From Desulfurobacteriaceae bacterium (GTDB taxonomy: Bacteria; Aquificota; Aquificia; Desulfurobacteriales; Desulfurobacteriaceae): a stretch of DNA of 64,000 bases. Shown piece by piece: positions 2,984 through 64,000 of the stretch. The notes beneath the pieces are model-generated. The model was given only the letters and a program-made list of their open reading frames with translations. It did not search any database and was not told the DNA's origin. The position numbers were made by a program, and so were the translations under genes. Positions within the stretch are counted from its first letter, which is position 1, and each line of letters starts with the position of its first letter. The DNA is taken from contig JAMORC010000015.1 of the NCBI GenBank assembly GCA_027063785.1, positions 62,001 to 126,000 of the forward strand, written 5' to 3'.

Positions 2984-5422
2984 ATGGGTTTTAAGCTGTT
3001 TGACAGAAACACCTTAAGGGAGCTTTACAGGGTTAGGAAGCCGGCGGCCTACCTTCCCCTGGAGCTTAACAGGAAAGCTCCCCGCTTTGAGGAGAGGGAA
3101 GTCAGGTTCGTTCTCACCTACCCCGACCTTTACGAGGTCGGGAGTTCCCATATCGGAGGGAAGATACTCTACTACGTTATTAACGACCTTACGGACTTTG
3201 CCCTTATGCACAGGGCTTACCTTCCCCGTCCCGATATGCAGGCGTTTATGAAGGAAAAGAGAATCCCCCTTTTTACCCTTGAGGAACAGAGGCCTGTAAG
3301 GGATTACGACCTCTGGGGCTTCTCTTTCTCTTCGGAGCTTACCTACACCAATGCACTTAAGGCCATGGAGCTTGCCGGGATTTCCCTTTTCTCTGAGGAG
3401 AGGGAGGGCTTTCCCCTTTTATTTGCCGGAGGTCCTTGCGTCTATAACCCCGTTCCCCTTTCTCCCTTCTTTGACTTCTTCTCAATCGGTGACGGGGAGG
3501 AGACTTTAATAGAAGTGGCGAAGGTTGTTAGGGAAGCAAAGGTAAGCGGAGCTTCTAAGGAAGATGTCCTTAAAGAACTGAAAGATATCAGGGGTATTTG
3601 GGTTCCGGCCTTCGGCAGGTATTCCGTTAAGAAGGCCGTTTTTACCGGGATTTCTAAAGGATGGTTTCACACCTCTCCGCCCGTTCCGGCGGTTGAGACG
3701 AGTCAGGACAGAATTGCCGTTGAGGCGGCAAGGGGTTGCCTGAGGGGGTGCAGGTTCTGTCAGGCCGGTTACATTTACAGACCTTACAGGGAAAGGGATG
3801 AAAACCTTGTTGCCGGGCTGATAGAGAAGACGTTCAGGAATACCGGTTACGAAGAGGCGTCGCTGTCTGCCCTTTCAATATCAGACCACAGCCGATTTAA
3901 CGTTCTTGTTCCTAAGGTTATGTCTCTGTGCCAGAGGAAGATGATATCCCTCTCCTTACCCTCAATGAGGGTGAAGGGTTTTAATCCCGACCTTGCCTCC
4001 CAGCTCATGCAGGTTAAGAAAACGGGATTTACCCTTGCTCCGGAAGTTGGTTCTGACAGGCTGAGGCGGATAATAAACAAAGAACTTACCAACGAAGACC
4101 TCTTTAAAGCCGTTGAAGGGCTGTTTTCGAGGGGGTGGGGGAGGTTGAAGCTCTACTTTATGATCGGCCTTCCCTTTGAAACGGAAGACGATGTCAAATC
4201 CCTTGTCGATATGCTCTGGGAGGTTTACAGGATATCGAAACGCTACAGAGTCAGGAGGCACCTTGCTGCCGGGATATCGATATTTGTTCCGAAGCCCTTT
4301 ACTCCTTTCCAGTGGGAAGCCTTTGCCGATGAGGCTTCGGTAAGAGAAAAGGTTTCTTACATAAAGAAGAAATCCCCCAGGAGTTTCCACCTCAGGTTTC
4401 ACGACTACCGGCAGTCGATGATTGAAGCTCTCCTGACGAGAGGAGGAGAGGAAGTCTCTTCTCTTCTCCTTTCTGCCTACAAGAACGGGTGTCAGCTCGA
4501 CGGGTGGAATGAGTACTTTAACTGGGAAGGATGGCTCAGGGCTTTTGAGGAAAGCGGAGTAAATCTTGAGAGAGAACTCGGCAGAAGGGATTTCGGAGAA
4601 GAGCTTCCGTGGGACTTCATCGAGGGGGTCGTTACCAAGGAATTCCTGGTCAGAGAGCTTGGGAGGGCTGAAAAGGAACTCTGGACTCCCGACTGCCGGA
4701 TAGCGGGATGTCACGCCTGCGGGGCGTGTACACCGGAGCAGATTAAAGAACTCAAGAACTACCCGATACCGAAAAAGATTGAGTTTTCGGTTCCGCCCGG
4801 GAAGAAAAGGGAGTTTCCTTTAAAGAGGAAAGTTGCCCTTGTCTTTGAAAAGGTCGGTGCTGCCAGGTACCTTTCGCTCCTTGACATGACAAGAGTTTTC
4901 ACGAGGACTTTCAGGCGCTTTGGTGTTCCCTTGAGGTATTCTCAGGGCTTTAATCCCCACCCGAAGTTCAACATTCTCCTTGGCCTTCCCGTAGGGGTTG
5001 AGGGATTGGGAGAGATTGTTGAGGTGGAGCTTTCGGAAGAAGCGTTTGATTTTGAAAAGTTCATAGCGGAGTCGGAAGACTTTTTACCGGAAGGGATAAG
5101 GTTTAAATCGTGGATAGAGCTTGGATTCAAGGAGAGTTTACTGGGCAGGATAGAGAAGGTTTCCTACAGGATAAGGCCTTATGACCCGTATGACCTGGAG
5201 GTGTTTGAGAAAGGGGAGGCTGTTGACAGGAAGGGAAGGGGGGTAGTTTTAAAGGACAAGCTTTTGAGGCTTGAAGAGAATTGCGGTGAACTGCTGGTTG
5301 AACTGCGGGTTGAGGGGGGTAATATTCTAAACATCGGGGATATACTGAACTGGATGGGACTTGATTTTGGAAGGGCAGATGTCATCAGAGAAGAGCTGTT
5401 GCCGCAAGCAGATACTCATTAA
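2984..5422 (+). CDS. Radical SAM protein fused to DUF2344 domain
   Basis: An 812-residue fusion of a B12-binding-like radical SAM enzyme (TIGR03960 type) with a C-terminal DUF2344 (TIGR03936) domain. The N-terminal third has the pseudo-B12-binding segment (LTYPDLYEVGSSHIG, AGGPCVYNPVP, FFSIGDGEET). AARGCLRGCRFCQAGY carries the CxxxCxxC that binds the 4Fe-4S/SAM cluster. A cysteine patch near residue 565-590 (CRIAGCHACGACTPE) follows, then the DUF2344 core (ARYLSLLDMTRVFTRTFRR, YSQGFNPHPK). In many bacteria this pair sits next to rng, as it does here, and is thought to act in RNA modification or rRNA maturation; the substrate is not established by the sequence. Confidence 0.88.
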   Translation: MGFKLFDRNTLRELYRVRKPAAYLPLELNRKAPRFEEREVRFVLTYPDLYEVGSSHIGGKILYYVINDLTDFALMHRAYLPRPDMQAFMKEKRIPLFTLEEQRPVRDYDLWGFSFSSELTYTNALKAMELAGISLFSEEREGFPLLFAGGPCVYNPVPLSPFFDFFSIGDGEETLIEVAKVVREAKVSGASKEDVLKELKDIRGIWVPAFGRYSVKKAVFTGISKGWFHTSPPVPAVETSQDRIAVEAARGCLRGCRFCQAGYIYRPYRERDENLVAGLIEKTFRNTGYEEASLSALSISDHSRFNVLVPKVMSLCQRKMISLSLPSMRVKGFNPDLASQLMQVKKTGFTLAPEVGSDRLRRIINKELTNEDLFKAVEGLFSRGWGRLKLYFMIGLPFETEDDVKSLVDMLWEVYRISKRYRVRRHLAAGISIFVPKPFTPFQWEAFADEASVREKVSYIKKKSPRSFHLRFHDYRQSMIEALLTRGGEEVSSLLLSAYKNGCQLDGWNEYFNWEGWLRAFEESGVNLERELGRRDFGEELPWDFIEGVVTKEFLVRELGRAEKELWTPDCRIAGCHACGACTPEQIKELKNYPIPKKIEFSVPPGKKREFPLKRKVALVFEKVGAARYLSLLDMTRVFTRTFRRFGVPLRYSQGFNPHPKFNILLGLPVGVEGLGEIVEVELSEEAFDFEKFIAESEDFLPEGIRFKSWIELGFKESLLGRIEKVSYRIRPYDPYDLEVFEKGEAVDRKGRGVVLKDKLLRLEENCGELLVELRVEGGNILNIGDILNWMGLDFGRADVIREELLPQADTH

Positions 5423-59397: not shown

Positions 59398-60182
59398 CTG
59401 CCGGTGCTGCAACAGTTTTTATTTCCCTCGCACTCCTGCTTAGTGTTAACCAGGGACTACACACTCCAGAAAGTGTTCAGTGTTACGGCGGTAAAGTTTA
59501 CGTTTCAAACATTGGTAATCCGCCTCCGGACGGGAAGGACGGGGATGGTTTTATTTCCCTTTTGAGTGAAGACGGAAAGGTTATCAAAGCTAAGTTCGTT
59601 ACGGGATTGAATGCTCCGAAGGGAATAGCTTTCGGCGAAGGGAAGCTTTTTGTGGCTGATATAGATAGGATTGTTGTGATCGATCCGGAGAAGGGAGAGA
59701 TAGTAAAATCGATACCCGTTCCCGGATCGAAGTTCCTCAATGATACGGCCTTTTATAACGGAAGAGTTTACGTTTCCGATACTCAGACTAACACGATTTA
59801 TGCGGTTGATCCGCAGAGGGGTAAGGTTAAGGTTTTCTTTAGAAGCCCTAGCCTTCAGGGACCGAACGGTCTTGCTTTTCTCCCCGATGGAGCTCTGATT
59901 GTCGTCAGCTGGGGAGGCGGAAAGGTTTTTAAGCTTAAGGGGGGAAGGCTTGTAACCCTGGCAGAGGGATTTAAAAACCTTGACGGCGTAGTTGTAACGG
60001 AAGACGGGACGGTTATCTTCTCTGACTTTTCTGACGGTAAAGTTTATGCACTTAAGGGAAATAAAATAAAACTTCTTGTTTCCGGTTTGACCTCTCCGGC
60101 CGATATAGGCTACTGTAATGGTAAGCTTTTTATCCCGGAGTTCCTTTTCAACGATGTAAAAGTTTTCAGGGTAAAAAGGTGA
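59388..60182 (+). CDS. Exported SMP-30/NHL-like beta-propeller protein
   Basis: 264 residues with a hydrophobic N-terminal segment (ATVFISLALLLSVNQG) that could be a signal peptide or anchor, then repeated four-strand blades (GKVYVSNIG, GKLFVADIDRIVVID, GRVYVSDTQTNTIYAVD, GTVIFSDFSDGKVYAL). It resembles SMP-30/gluconolactonase-like propellers. Asn-Asp-Gly blades (LNDTAFYNG, GPNGLAF) suggest calcium binding, but the catalytic metal ligands are not certain. Located between nadK and rapZ by overlap, so it shares the operon; function unknown. Confidence 0.75.
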   Translation: MGITAGAATVFISLALLLSVNQGLHTPESVQCYGGKVYVSNIGNPPPDGKDGDGFISLLSEDGKVIKAKFVTGLNAPKGIAFGEGKLFVADIDRIVVIDPEKGEIVKSIPVPGSKFLNDTAFYNGRVYVSDTQTNTIYAVDPQRGKVKVFFRSPSLQGPNGLAFLPDGALIVVSWGGGKVFKLKGGRLVTLAEGFKNLDGVVVTEDGTVIFSDFSDGKVYALKGNKIKLLVSGLTSPADIGYCNGKLFIPEFLFNDVKVFRVKR

Positions 60183-61063
60183 AAAGGACGCTCATACTTA
60201 CCGGAGAGTCCGGGGCTGGAAAATCGAGTGCTCTTAAGTACCTGGAAGACCTAGGCTTTTACTGTATTGATAACATTCCTCCGGACTTAATTCCGTCTTT
60301 CCTGAGTCTTATCGAGTCAAACCCTGAAGTGGAGAAGTCAGCCCTTGTGGTTGACGTCAGGAATCCGGCCTTCAGGACTTCTGCTCCGGAGATGCTCAAG
60401 AAAATTAAGGAGGCCTTTCCCGAAGCTGAGATCTGGCACTTCACGGCTTCGAAGGAGACCCTTCTGAAAAGGTTTAAGGAGACGAGGCGTCCCCACCCTT
60501 TCCAGAGGTATTTTCCCGGCAGGAGCTTGGAGGAGCTTATAGAGAACGAGCAGGCCTTCTACGAGGGTTTAAGGGGACTTGTAGACAGAGTGATTGACAC
60601 TACAAACTTGACACCCCACGACCTTAAAAGGAGCATCAGGCTGATCCTCAGCGTAGGGAAACCTCAGCTTCAGGTTACGATTATGTCCTTCGGCTTTAAG
60701 TACGGCGTTCCTTCGGGGGCGGACAACGTCTTCGACGTCAGGTTTCTTCCCAATCCTCATTTTGTTCCGGGCTTAAAGCTCAAGACGGGTCTTGATAGGG
60801 ATGTGCGTGACTACGTCCTGAGTTTTCCGGAAACTCTGGAGACAATCGAGAGAATATACTCCTTCATAAGCCATACCCTTCCACTATACGAAAAAGAAGG
60901 AAAGGCTTACATAACCTACGCTGTGGGATGTACGGGAGGACAGCACAGGTCAGTAGTCGTGGCCGAGGAAATCGCTGAAAGGCTTTCCCGGGAATTTTCT
61001 GACTACTCTATTTTTGTAGAACACAGAGAACAAAACGTAAGGCGAAAAGTTAAAGGTTCTTAA
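60179..61063 (+). CDS. rapZ: RNase adapter / nucleotide-binding protein RapZ
   Basis: RapZ/YvcJ family, 294 residues: Walker A LILTGESGAGKSSALKYLED, FYCIDNIPPDLIP, VVDVRNP, HPFQRY, and the C-terminal module with FGFKYGVPSGADNVFDVRFLPNPH, YAVGCTGGQHRSV and VEHREQNV. In E. coli it controls GlmS mRNA turnover through RNase E; in other bacteria the role is less clear. The start is GTG 60179, overlapping the preceding TGA. Confidence 0.95.
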   Translation: MKRTLILTGESGAGKSSALKYLEDLGFYCIDNIPPDLIPSFLSLIESNPEVEKSALVVDVRNPAFRTSAPEMLKKIKEAFPEAEIWHFTASKETLLKRFKETRRPHPFQRYFPGRSLEELIENEQAFYEGLRGLVDRVIDTTNLTPHDLKRSIRLILSVGKPQLQVTIMSFGFKYGVPSGADNVFDVRFLPNPHFVPGLKLKTGLDRDVRDYVLSFPETLETIERIYSFISHTLPLYEKEGKAYITYAVGCTGGQHRSVVVAEEIAERLSREFSDYSIFVEHREQNVRRKVKGS

Positions 61064-61155
61064 GTTTCTGCTCCTTCACAGCTGAAATTTCTGCTGTGGC
61101 GCTCTCCTTTTTCCCTCCAAAATTAAGTATCAGGTTAAATGGGAGGTCTGAAGTT
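61064..61155 (+). other. Intergenic region with possible hairpin
   Basis: CACAGC and GCTGTG (about 61078-61099) form a six-bp stem with a ten-nt loop, followed at a distance by CTTTTT. It may be a weak terminator of the rapZ operon. No convincing promoter for the next gene was found. Confidence 0.35.
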
Positions 61156-62583
61156 ATGGATATGTTGCCGGAAAACTCTATGTCCCGTCTTTTGACGTTG
61201 ATAACGCCTTTTAACTTTGAGGAGATCAAGGGAAAGGTAAGTAAAGATACTGGTAAAGAGGTTATTTCAAGGGCTTTAAAGCTTGTTCGGGATCTCGGCA
61301 GAAGGGAGCTTGTTGTTCTTCCCGAAATCCTTCCCCATGAAAGGTTCTCTGAAGTTCTGACCTACTTTGACATCAGATGCCTTGAAGCAAAGAAGGAAAG
61401 CCTGAAGGCTAACAAGGATTCTCTGGTGCCGGTAGCTTTTCCGGGCATTCTTTATGAATCTTTCGAAGGAGACTTGGTTTACCGGGATTTCTTTATTCCG
61501 GTAATAGAGCTGTTGACCGTTCGTGCTTTGATCTGGCTGTTGAGGGAAGTGGGTTTCTGTTACGCCGTTATTGTTTGCAGTTCCTGGCTTGAGGATGTGA
61601 TATCGGAGAAAGGTAACTCTGAACTTAACTTGGAGGGTATAAGGGTCGGATGTTCTGCTCGGGTAGGAGATCTCAGGTTGATTGTTTTGGAGCTTGAGTC
61701 TTGCCCTTCCTGCGCTTCGGCTCTCCGGGAATCTGCAGAGAAGTCGAGAACGTCCGATGTTGACCTGCTTGTTCATATCCTCTCTCGGTTTTCACAGATG
61801 CACTGTATTGGTGGAAGCGGCAACCTTTCCTGTCTCTTCCTGAACAAACCGTCCGACTTTGTCGTGATTTCCTCTCCTCTTTCTTTGAACCCGGAAACGA
61901 TATCGGATGATGTTTTGGAAAAGGAGGTTTTTGATCTTTCGAGGGTAAAAAAGGTGGGAATGAGACAAGTGGCTCCGGTCTTTGTTATGGGCAGTGATCT
62001 GGAAAGCGGTGAATCGCTGCAGGACATTTTGGAAAAGCTCGATAGGGAAATTAGTGAAGAGAGGGATGAAGACAGGAAAGTCAGGAGGAGAAGCAGGAGA
62101 GAGGATCTGGAGAAACTTTTCAAACAAGCCCTGATTGAAATCGACAGGAAAAAAGGAACGCTGGAATCACCTGCTATCCGGAAGCTTGACATTCTTGTGA
62201 CCATGAAGAGGAAAAAGGGAATCGGTGTGGCGGTAATTCTTGATGAAGTTCCCGGGAGTGAAATCTTTATACCGAACCAGGATATAGCGATTATCCGCTT
62301 TAATCTCCGGAAATACTCTCCAGAAGAGGTGATTCTTATTGCCCTGATGTTGCTGTCTGAGTTCAGGAGATTTCCCTGGAAGAAAAATGTATCTGTAAAC
62401 GATGTTAGAGGAATCCTTAACAGGTTCTTTAGTGAGTTCGGACGTAACCTTAAAAGCGGTGACTTATACGAAGTTCTGCAGTTCGGAAGAAAAGTTCTCA
62501 GGGGAATTTTAGAAAGTGAATTTTCGGAAGCTGAACTTTGTCGCGGGCAGGCAGGAGTGAGGAAAAAATTAAATCGCCGTTAA
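61156..62583 (+). CDS. Unrecognised 475-aa protein upstream of HslU-like ATPase
   Basis: I do not recognise a family. ATG 61156 has GGGAGG 9 nt upstream; open codons before it do not look like protein. Residues 1-270 are mixed alpha/beta with hydrophobic strands (ELVVLPEILP, YAVIVCSSWLEDV, LRLIVLELESCPSCASAL) and cysteines. Residues about 305-345 are a highly charged stretch (SEERDEDRKVRRRSRRED). The last ~130 residues hold a beta-rich core (LDILVTMKRKKGIGVAVILDE) and helices. It ends 10 nt before the AAA+ gene, so the two form an operon. It could be substrate adaptor, partner or a new enzyme; nothing in the sequence decides. Confidence 0.72.
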   Translation: MDMLPENSMSRLLTLITPFNFEEIKGKVSKDTGKEVISRALKLVRDLGRRELVVLPEILPHERFSEVLTYFDIRCLEAKKESLKANKDSLVPVAFPGILYESFEGDLVYRDFFIPVIELLTVRALIWLLREVGFCYAVIVCSSWLEDVISEKGNSELNLEGIRVGCSARVGDLRLIVLELESCPSCASALRESAEKSRTSDVDLLVHILSRFSQMHCIGGSGNLSCLFLNKPSDFVVISSPLSLNPETISDDVLEKEVFDLSRVKKVGMRQVAPVFVMGSDLESGESLQDILEKLDREISEERDEDRKVRRRSRREDLEKLFKQALIEIDRKKGTLESPAIRKLDILVTMKRKKGIGVAVILDEVPGSEIFIPNQDIAIIRFNLRKYSPEEVILIALMLLSEFRRFPWKKNVSVNDVRGILNRFFSEFGRNLKSGDLYEVLQFGRKVLRGILESEFSEAELCRGQAGVRKKLNRR

Positions 62584-62593
62584 GGGGGATATC

Positions 62594-64000
62594 ATGTTGA
62601 CTTTTGCCAGTTACGCTGTTGCGGAGAAGCTCAGCAGGCATGTTGTAGGACAGCGGGCGGCTGTTGAAGATGTTGTTTCGGCCATATGTGAGAATATGGA
62701 AGCCTTTTTCCTGGAAAAGCCTATGAAAGTTAACAATATCCTTCTCTACGGTCCAACGGGAAGCGGGAAGACGGAACTGGCACGGTCGATAACCAAGGTA
62801 TTGGACATTCCATTTTTAAAAGAGACTATGAACGACTTTACTTTGACAGGATATAAAGGTAGAGACCCTCAAGAAATAGTGACCAGGGACTTTAAGAAGC
62901 TGATTACTTCCGAAGAAGTAAAAGCAATCTCCGAGAAAAGAGAGAAGTTTCTGGTAAGAAAAGAGGCGTTAGAGGTTCTGAAGGAAAGTGATTTATCTTC
63001 CATCGAATTCCTTATAGCTCTTGAGTTTGCGTCTTCGACCGTTTTTATGACGGAAGAAGAAGCCCTTTCTATTCTGAGAGGCAAGTATAGGGGCAGGGAA
63101 AGTCTTGTGGATTCGGTGGCTTCAATGGTTAATATCGTGCTTTGGGATTTTGAGGGAAACATAAACATCGGCCATGCCATAGATGAAGCTGAGTTTAGGT
63201 CAAAGCCTTTTGGAGTCGTCTTTATTGATGAAATAGATAAGATCCTGATAAACGAGCGGGATGGTTATTCGGAGAGCTTCTACCGTCCCCTTCAGGAGTT
63301 TATCCTTACAATGGTAGAAGGTAGCGTTGTAACGCACGAGGATTGGGGCTCAATAGATACTTCGCACATAACCTTTATACTCGCCGGGGCTTTTATAAAC
63401 CACTCAATTGACGAGATAATCCCGGAGCTAAAGGGGCGTCTCAACGTTAGGGTGAAGGTGAGAGAACTCGGGTATGAAGATTACCTTGAGATTGCAAGGC
63501 TTCAAAAGCTTGAAATTCCCGAAATCCTGAGCGGAAAAGTGGTAAAAATCAGAGATGGAGTTTTTGAGGAAGTGGCAAGGATATGTGAGGAGCTTAATGC
63601 CGAGGAATACCTGGGAGCCAGAAGGATAAAAGAGGTGATCTCAAAGGTTAACAGGGCAATTAAAAAAGAGTTGACCTTTTTCAGCGGTGAGGAGCCTCTT
63701 GTTATTGATAAGAGCTTTGTAAGGTGGGCTGTTTCATTTGACAGCTCAAGGAGTACGGACTATCAAAGTGTTTCGGTTTTTTCCGATTTTTCCCGTGATT
63801 CCGGTTTAGGTAAGAGTAAACTCAACAAAACTAAGATGAAAGAAATTAAAAAGAGGCTTAGAGATAAGATTTTCCGGGACTTGGTCGAGAAGTATAGAAG
63901 AAAAATTGAGGAGTTCAGCGGTAAGTTAACTGTGGCGTTTCCCTTTTCCGTTAATGTTAAGGAGCTAAAGTTTAAGAATTCGGAGGGTAAAACCGTAATT
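62594..64000 (+). CDS. HslU-like AAA+ unfoldase with C-terminal extension (partial)
   Basis: The open frame from ATG 62594 runs off the window (469 codons, no stop). Residues about 13-24 read LSRHVVGQRAAV, as in HslU/ClpX. Walker A GPTGSGKTELARS (53-65), GYKGRDPQEIV, an inserted region of about 120 residues like the HslU I domain, Walker B VVFIDEIDKI (about 208-217), LQEFILTMVEGSVV, FILAGAFINHS, IIPELKGRLNVRV and sensor 2 YLGARRIKEVI (about 338-348) follow in order. HslU normally ends soon after sensor 2; here at least 120 more, basic residues continue. No hslV is visible. No ClpX zinc finger. Confidence 0.85.
   Translation, partial: MLTFASYAVAEKLSRHVVGQRAAVEDVVSAICENMEAFFLEKPMKVNNILLYGPTGSGKTELARSITKVLDIPFLKETMNDFTLTGYKGRDPQEIVTRDFKKLITSEEVKAISEKREKFLVRKEALEVLKESDLSSIEFLIALEFASSTVFMTEEEALSILRGKYRGRESLVDSVASMVNIVLWDFEGNINIGHAIDEAEFRSKPFGVVFIDEIDKILINERDGYSESFYRPLQEFILTMVEGSVVTHEDWGSIDTSHITFILAGAFINHSIDEIIPELKGRLNVRVKVRELGYEDYLEIARLQKLEIPEILSGKVVKIRDGVFEEVARICEELNAEEYLGARRIKEVISKVNRAIKKELTFFSGEEPLVIDKSFVRWAVSFDSSRSTDYQSVSVFSDFSRDSGLGKSKLNKTKMKEIKKRLRDKIFRDLVEKYRRKIEEFSGKLTVAFPFSVNVKELKFKNSEGKTVI

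Follow-up and report, generated by a model that had tools for sequence, protein, structure and literature searches.

Two adjacent genes at the end of the window, i.e. of the whole 64,000-nucleotide stretch of DNA analysed here, are carried as cargo by a mobile genomic island in this member of the Desulfurobacteriaceae: the first encodes a 475-residue protein of a new orphan family, and the second encodes an AAA+ ATPase of the HslU/ClpX type. The two genes are strictly linked, the ATPases form a clade of their own, and the pair has been transferred recently and is maintained by purifying selection. The interpretation that we prefer, tentatively and at a little less than even confidence, is that the pair represents a mobile remodelling motor of the kind found on defence islands together with a dedicated adaptor, with a putative action against invading DNA or phages.

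The ATPase gene (62594 to 64000, forward strand) starts with an ATG at 62594, 10 nucleotides after the stop codon of the partner gene and behind a purine-rich ribosome-binding site (GGGGGA). As the window ends within the gene, it was completed by reading the contig (G000:C15, which goes on to 152500) past this point: the stop codon is located at about 64144, about 144 nucleotides beyond the window end, and the complete protein has 516 amino acids. It begins directly at the AAA+ core, in which the alignment of the homologues places the Walker A motif GPTGSGKT (residues 53-60; 62750 to 62773), the Walker B motif FIDEIDK (residues 210-216; 63221 to 63241), a putative arginine finger, R282 in PELKGR (63437 to 63439), and the Sensor 2 motif GARR (residues 341-344; 63614 to 63625), all on the forward strand. 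The pore loop GYKGRD (residues 86-91; 62849 to 62866) was located by alignment with the canonical HslU of the same genome, which reads GYVGRD at this position. The key residues of the AAA+ motifs, including the aromatic residue of the pore loop, are invariant in seven ATPase homologues. Between the pore loop and Walker B, an insert (approximate limits 62867 to 63202) occupies the place of the HslU I-domain; the initial annotation had called it I-domain-like, and this holds for its position but not for its length and sequence, since it is shorter than the I-domain and unlike it. The same annotation had claimed that the HslU end is missing and that the protein continues for at least 120 basic residues, and the full protein bears this out: residues 385-516, which begin within the window (63746 to 64000), form a C-terminal extension that replaces the HslU end, and these last 132 residues are net basic (22 lysines and 11 arginines versus nine aspartates and ten glutamates). 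A motif resembling D/N-S-x-G-K-x-V/L-L/I-E-Y-L is present in the extension in six of the seven homologues.

The core of the ATPase has GPTGSGKT, a GY-x-GRD pore loop, FIDEIDK, PEL-x-GR and GARR in common with HslU (ClpY), and the best PDB sequence match is HslU, followed by ClpX, which matches over the N-terminal AAA+ half. The protein is about 31% identical to the genome's own canonical HslU. However, it scores only 132 bits against the NCBIfam model of HslU (TIGR00390; cut-off 362) and 56-69 bits against those of ClpX (TIGR00382 / NF003745; cut-offs 359-371), and, in contrast to ClpX, it has no zinc-binding N-domain and is placed in a separate cluster. When HslU, ClpX and viral relatives are included in a tree, seven ATPases form one clade with a support of 100/100 on a long branch; as this tree was midpoint-rooted and some of its branches are long, it is compatible with a sister relationship to HslU and with one to HslU plus ClpX alike. 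Since the protein lacks the docking end of HslU, is not linked to hslV and stays below the score cut-off, we classify it as an AAA+ protein of the HslU/ClpX clade but not as a member of HslU. An HslU-type core is also found in PHROG 4339, a family of unknown function that matches the ATPase at E 1.7e-46, and in the HslU-domain protein of Cronobacter phage CR5, which is 35-39% identical to the ATPase over part of the core; the phage protein, however, has 687 residues and a different insert and falls outside the ATPase clade in the tree. At a locus of the CR5 type, the HslU-like gene (L141:5854-7917) is preceded by an ORF of 167 codons (3047-3550), the start of which looks HslV-like by eye. Among the matches listed for the ATPase profile in the genome and viral contigs, ordinary HslU and ClpX proteins that share the FIDEIDK pattern predominated, so that the distribution given below applies to the phylum; no plasmid relative was obtained at E 1e-15. 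With the PADLOC models, the ATPases gave generic AAA-type matches only (DolB, IetA, mad8), and neither the partner nor the ATPase had a specific match to a known component of anti-phage defence; the match of one ATPase (that of G008) to mad8 of the MADS system at E 3e-9 is likewise read as a generic AAA match. No description of the ATPase clade or of the partner was found in the libraries and literature that were searched.

In the HslVU protease, HslU is the ATPase component. The initial annotation had stated that HslV is not visible, and indeed none is encoded after the ATPase on the extended contig, where the next sizeable ORF on the same strand encodes a 337-residue orphan about 600 nucleotides on; the genome as a whole, however, does have hslV, in an intact canonical hslV-hslU operon on another contig (C39). 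Since this operon is intact, the pair does not replace hslVU. The suggestion that the partner takes the place of HslV has therefore lost favour: in addition to the canonical operon, the ATPase is devoid of an HslU-type end, and no search that was made revealed any resemblance of the partner to HslV. The possibility that the ATPase is an alternative motor for the HslV that the cell already has, the 475-residue protein being its substrate adaptor, is quite unlikely in our judgement. HslV is encoded in the genome, the pore loop and the AAA+ core are similar to those of HslU, and some members of the clade have short acidic-hydrophobic ends (DDIDF, EELEF) that would be in agreement with this possibility. 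However, docking of HslU on HslV takes place via the C-terminal end of HslU (PMC6429459). This end (...EDLTRYIL in the canonical protein) is absent from the ATPase, and about 130 additional residues with unlike termini are found in its place; moreover, the gene stands apart from hslV, and a canonical HslU is present. The absence of the docking end leads us to expect remodelling without HslV: the ATPase would be a separate motor of the HslU/ClpX clade, most likely working alone as an unfoldase or remodeller and not within a two-component protease.

The partner gene (61156 to 62583, forward strand) starts with an ATG that has a purine-rich ribosome-binding site (GGGAGG) just upstream; the alternative, longer reading from a GTG at 61096 is devoid of such support. 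Sequence searches of Pfam, NCBIfam, PADLOC, PHROG and PDB gave no match to the protein, so that membership in a known family was rejected within these libraries, and it represents a new orphan family. The large ORF of no nameable family that the initial annotation had placed 10 nucleotides ahead of an HslU-type ATPase was thus confirmed in its coordinates, as were the motifs of the ATPase; the two findings that the annotation had named in advance as speaking against its proposal, an hslV gene downstream and a known family for the 475-residue protein, were not obtained. Five full-length homologues of the partner can be aligned, with residues 266-455, approximately, being most conserved. In the first half of the protein, residues 107-180 or so are predicted to follow a helix-strand-helix-strand-strand pattern, as at the end of a methyltransferase fold; the better-modelled part of that half has the order strand-helix-strand-strand, which is typical of this end. 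The AlphaFold2 model was built from only five sequences and is poor (mean pLDDT 56, pTM 0.43), and a further model, built on a different lead sequence, was worse (mean pLDDT 43). With the first model, Foldseek returned mostly SAM-dependent methyltransferases among the top 50 PDB matches, the best of them at E 0.017 and none at E < 0.001, and the matches in a viral library were similarly weak. The alignment of five partners shows neither a SAM-binding motif nor a (D/N)PP(Y/F) motif, and with the N6_Mtase profile there was no signal whatsoever. An alignment by eye had raised the idea that the partner is related to HsdS or to N6 methyltransferases, as the conserved C-terminal half can be aligned with an HsdS domain in a plausible register (DILV...VAVI). 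In a profile-profile comparison, this likeness had a P of 0.036; in the control against 145 other family profiles, HsdS ranked 18 and was not set apart, and neither Methylase_S nor any other specificity-domain profile of Pfam matched the partner. These tests did not raise the idea above the controls, and the likeness to the target-recognition domains of HsdS and type ISP enzymes or to N6 DNA methyltransferases is not significant by any statistic. A methyltransferase-like fold or a target-recognition domain in the partner is therefore to be taken as a lead only, the evidence for the fold being weak.

In the 136 genomes of the phylum that were covered, the ATPase is present in eight, all of which belong to one family (22 genomes), and the partner in six of the same family. 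The partner is absent from all 128 genomes that lack the ATPase, and wherever it occurs (6/6) it is encoded directly upstream of the ATPase, with a gap of about 10-25 nucleotides where the genes are intact. Thus, the linkage of the homologues, which the initial annotation had wanted to see checked, holds in every genome that has the partner. The chance that six partners placed at random would all fall within the eight ATPase genomes of the 22 is 28/74613 (about 4e-4) if kinship is ignored. Homologues of both genes are present in another five genomes, which rules out a chance ORF. A weak partner-like match outside the family (in G112) was discarded as a chance match within a PriA-like ORF, and no relatives of the partner were found in the plasmid or viral contigs searched. 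That the partner gene always stands immediately before the ATPase gene suggests that, in those genomes, the two proteins form a complex that is obligate or nearly so, and from this linkage we infer an adaptor role: most likely, the partner binds to the ATPase as a dedicated adaptor or recognition subunit, which we favour over a role as the substrate. Two observations count against our preferred interpretation. First, in two genomes (G003 and G008) a more diverged ATPase is present without a recognisable partner, so that not every member needs it. Second, a stop codon disrupts the partner gene of G021, where the ATPase gene has remained intact. The same observations bear on the idea of a toxin-antitoxin-like or abortive unit, with one of the two proteins keeping the other in check, since they imply that those cells suffer no toxicity from an ATPase that lacks its partner. 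Such a unit, suggested by two adjacent and probably co-translated genes on accessory islands with AbiEii genes alongside in some genomes, is very unlikely in our view: apart from the broken partner and the two ATPases that stand alone, proteins of 475 and 516 amino acids with an ATPase core would be unusual for toxin-antitoxin pairs.

The comparison with relatives revealed that the pair is an insertion. The left edge of the inserted stretch (61064 to 61155) lies just after rapZ (60179-61063). In G020, G018, G011, G015, G005, G004 and G010, rapZ directly meets a convergent gene for an alpha/beta-hydrolase; the genome studied here (G000) carries 4.7 kb between the two, with only the pair, the 337-residue orphan ORF and gene fragments. 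The GC content is 41-46% in this insert as compared to 46-51% in most of the flanks. The tRNA gene search was negative at the loci of G000, G011, G021, G003 and G008, and no clear long terminal repeats were found on either side of the G000 insert. A second empty site is provided by serA, which adjoins a truD-like gene in two genomes of genus g6 (G015 and G005) and also in G002 outside the genus; in G021, 11.7 kb with the pair, proteins of 107 and 298 residues and AbiEii genes are found between them. Between G011 and G021, the synonymous divergence (dS) of core genes is 1.14 for serA and 1.28 for ruvB, as compared to 0.21 for the ATPase, 0.18 for AbiEii, 0.10 for the 107-residue protein and 0.14 for the 298-residue protein. 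At synonymous sites, the divergence of the island genes is thus about 5-12 times lower than that of the adjacent core genes. This points to a recent transfer of the island between the two species, i.e. to an exchange after their split. The empty sites, the atypical GC content and the low synonymous divergence identify the pair as cargo of a mobile genomic island, and together the two genes would be a co-transferred accessory cassette. In the same comparison, the dN/dS ratios of 0.15-0.31 for the partner and the ATPase indicate that both proteins are maintained by purifying selection. Such selection, as well as the HslU/ClpX ancestry, might also be expected of an ordinary housekeeping chaperone or remodeller with a lineage-specific task outside defence; the patchy distribution (8/22 genomes of the family), the different insertion sites and the recent transfer make this distinctly improbable.

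The gene content around the pair appears to be a defence-type environment, and we do not take this environment alone for a function. Past the end of the window, between the ATPase gene and the 337-residue orphan ORF (L003:5749-6762, forward strand, no family match), the other strand carries a remnant of 50 codons that belongs to a type ISP restriction-modification enzyme, namely to its C-terminal specificity domain (PF18135; L003:5590-5736, about 64589-64735); the match of this remnant (E 8e-4) is under the cut-off. In G017, a type ISP gene that is complete or nearly so is present about 6 kb from the pair. In G021, genes for an N6 methyltransferase and an R.Pab1-type endonuclease are inserted between ruvB and serA (L046:3838-5794), adjoining the island with the broken partner gene. 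The lone ATPase of G003 is encoded beside an Arc-like protein of 78 residues and a PprPIWI-like Piwi protein of 687 residues (L047:8992-13492), with a type III restriction enzyme nearby, and the diverged lone ATPase of G008 beside a replication-initiator ORF of the RPA-like type, before a hemB-like gene (L048:8484-11224). In genus g6, the 107-residue protein directly follows the ATPase (L042:11433-12672, L043, L046, L044:1597-1926; 44% identical in G018) and is a possible third component in this genus; the 298-residue protein, which is fast-evolving, follows in three genomes of the genus. The replication-initiator ORF next to the G008 ATPase, a weak match of one ATPase to TniB, the several unrelated insertion sites and the recent transfer could also mean that the pair serves the element that carries it, by taking part in its integration, replication or maintenance; the ATPase would then remodel a nucleoprotein complex in the manner of ClpX or TniB. 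We consider this unlikely: among the scanned genes of the islands no integrase, transposase or relaxase was recognised, the G000 insert has nothing but the pair, one orphan ORF and fragments, the partner was found on no plasmid or viral contig, and the likeness to TniB is a single weak match of the AAA type.

The mobility of the pair and its restriction, AbiEii and Piwi neighbours favour defence as the purpose of the preferred motor-adaptor cassette, and we regard it as the most likely one, at a confidence that falls somewhat short of even; that no homologue of known function was obtained from the libraries searched counts against this interpretation. AAA+ proteins generally assemble into hexameric rings that thread or remodel proteins by means of the pore loop, which here contains GYKG. 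From its motifs, the ATPase is predicted to form such a hexamer and to have unfolding activity. It is tempting to speculate that the partner is a catalytically dead methyltransferase-like protein that may recognise nucleic acid, and that the cassette would most likely dismantle or inactivate a foreign nucleoprotein complex. The full version of this idea, an anti-phage or anti-plasmid system in which a protease-free unfoldase derived from HslU is directed against foreign nucleoprotein by a dedicated recognition protein with a dead DNA methyltransferase as its ancestor, is doubtful as it stands. A horizontally moving cassette of the defence-island type implies that the most likely biology of the pair differs from the one originally proposed for it. 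What draws attention to this clade is that it has lost the protease-docking end and gained a conserved C-terminal extension and an orphan partner, on islands of the defence type; if our interpretation is correct, an unfoldase of the HslU class would have been recruited for a mobile function.
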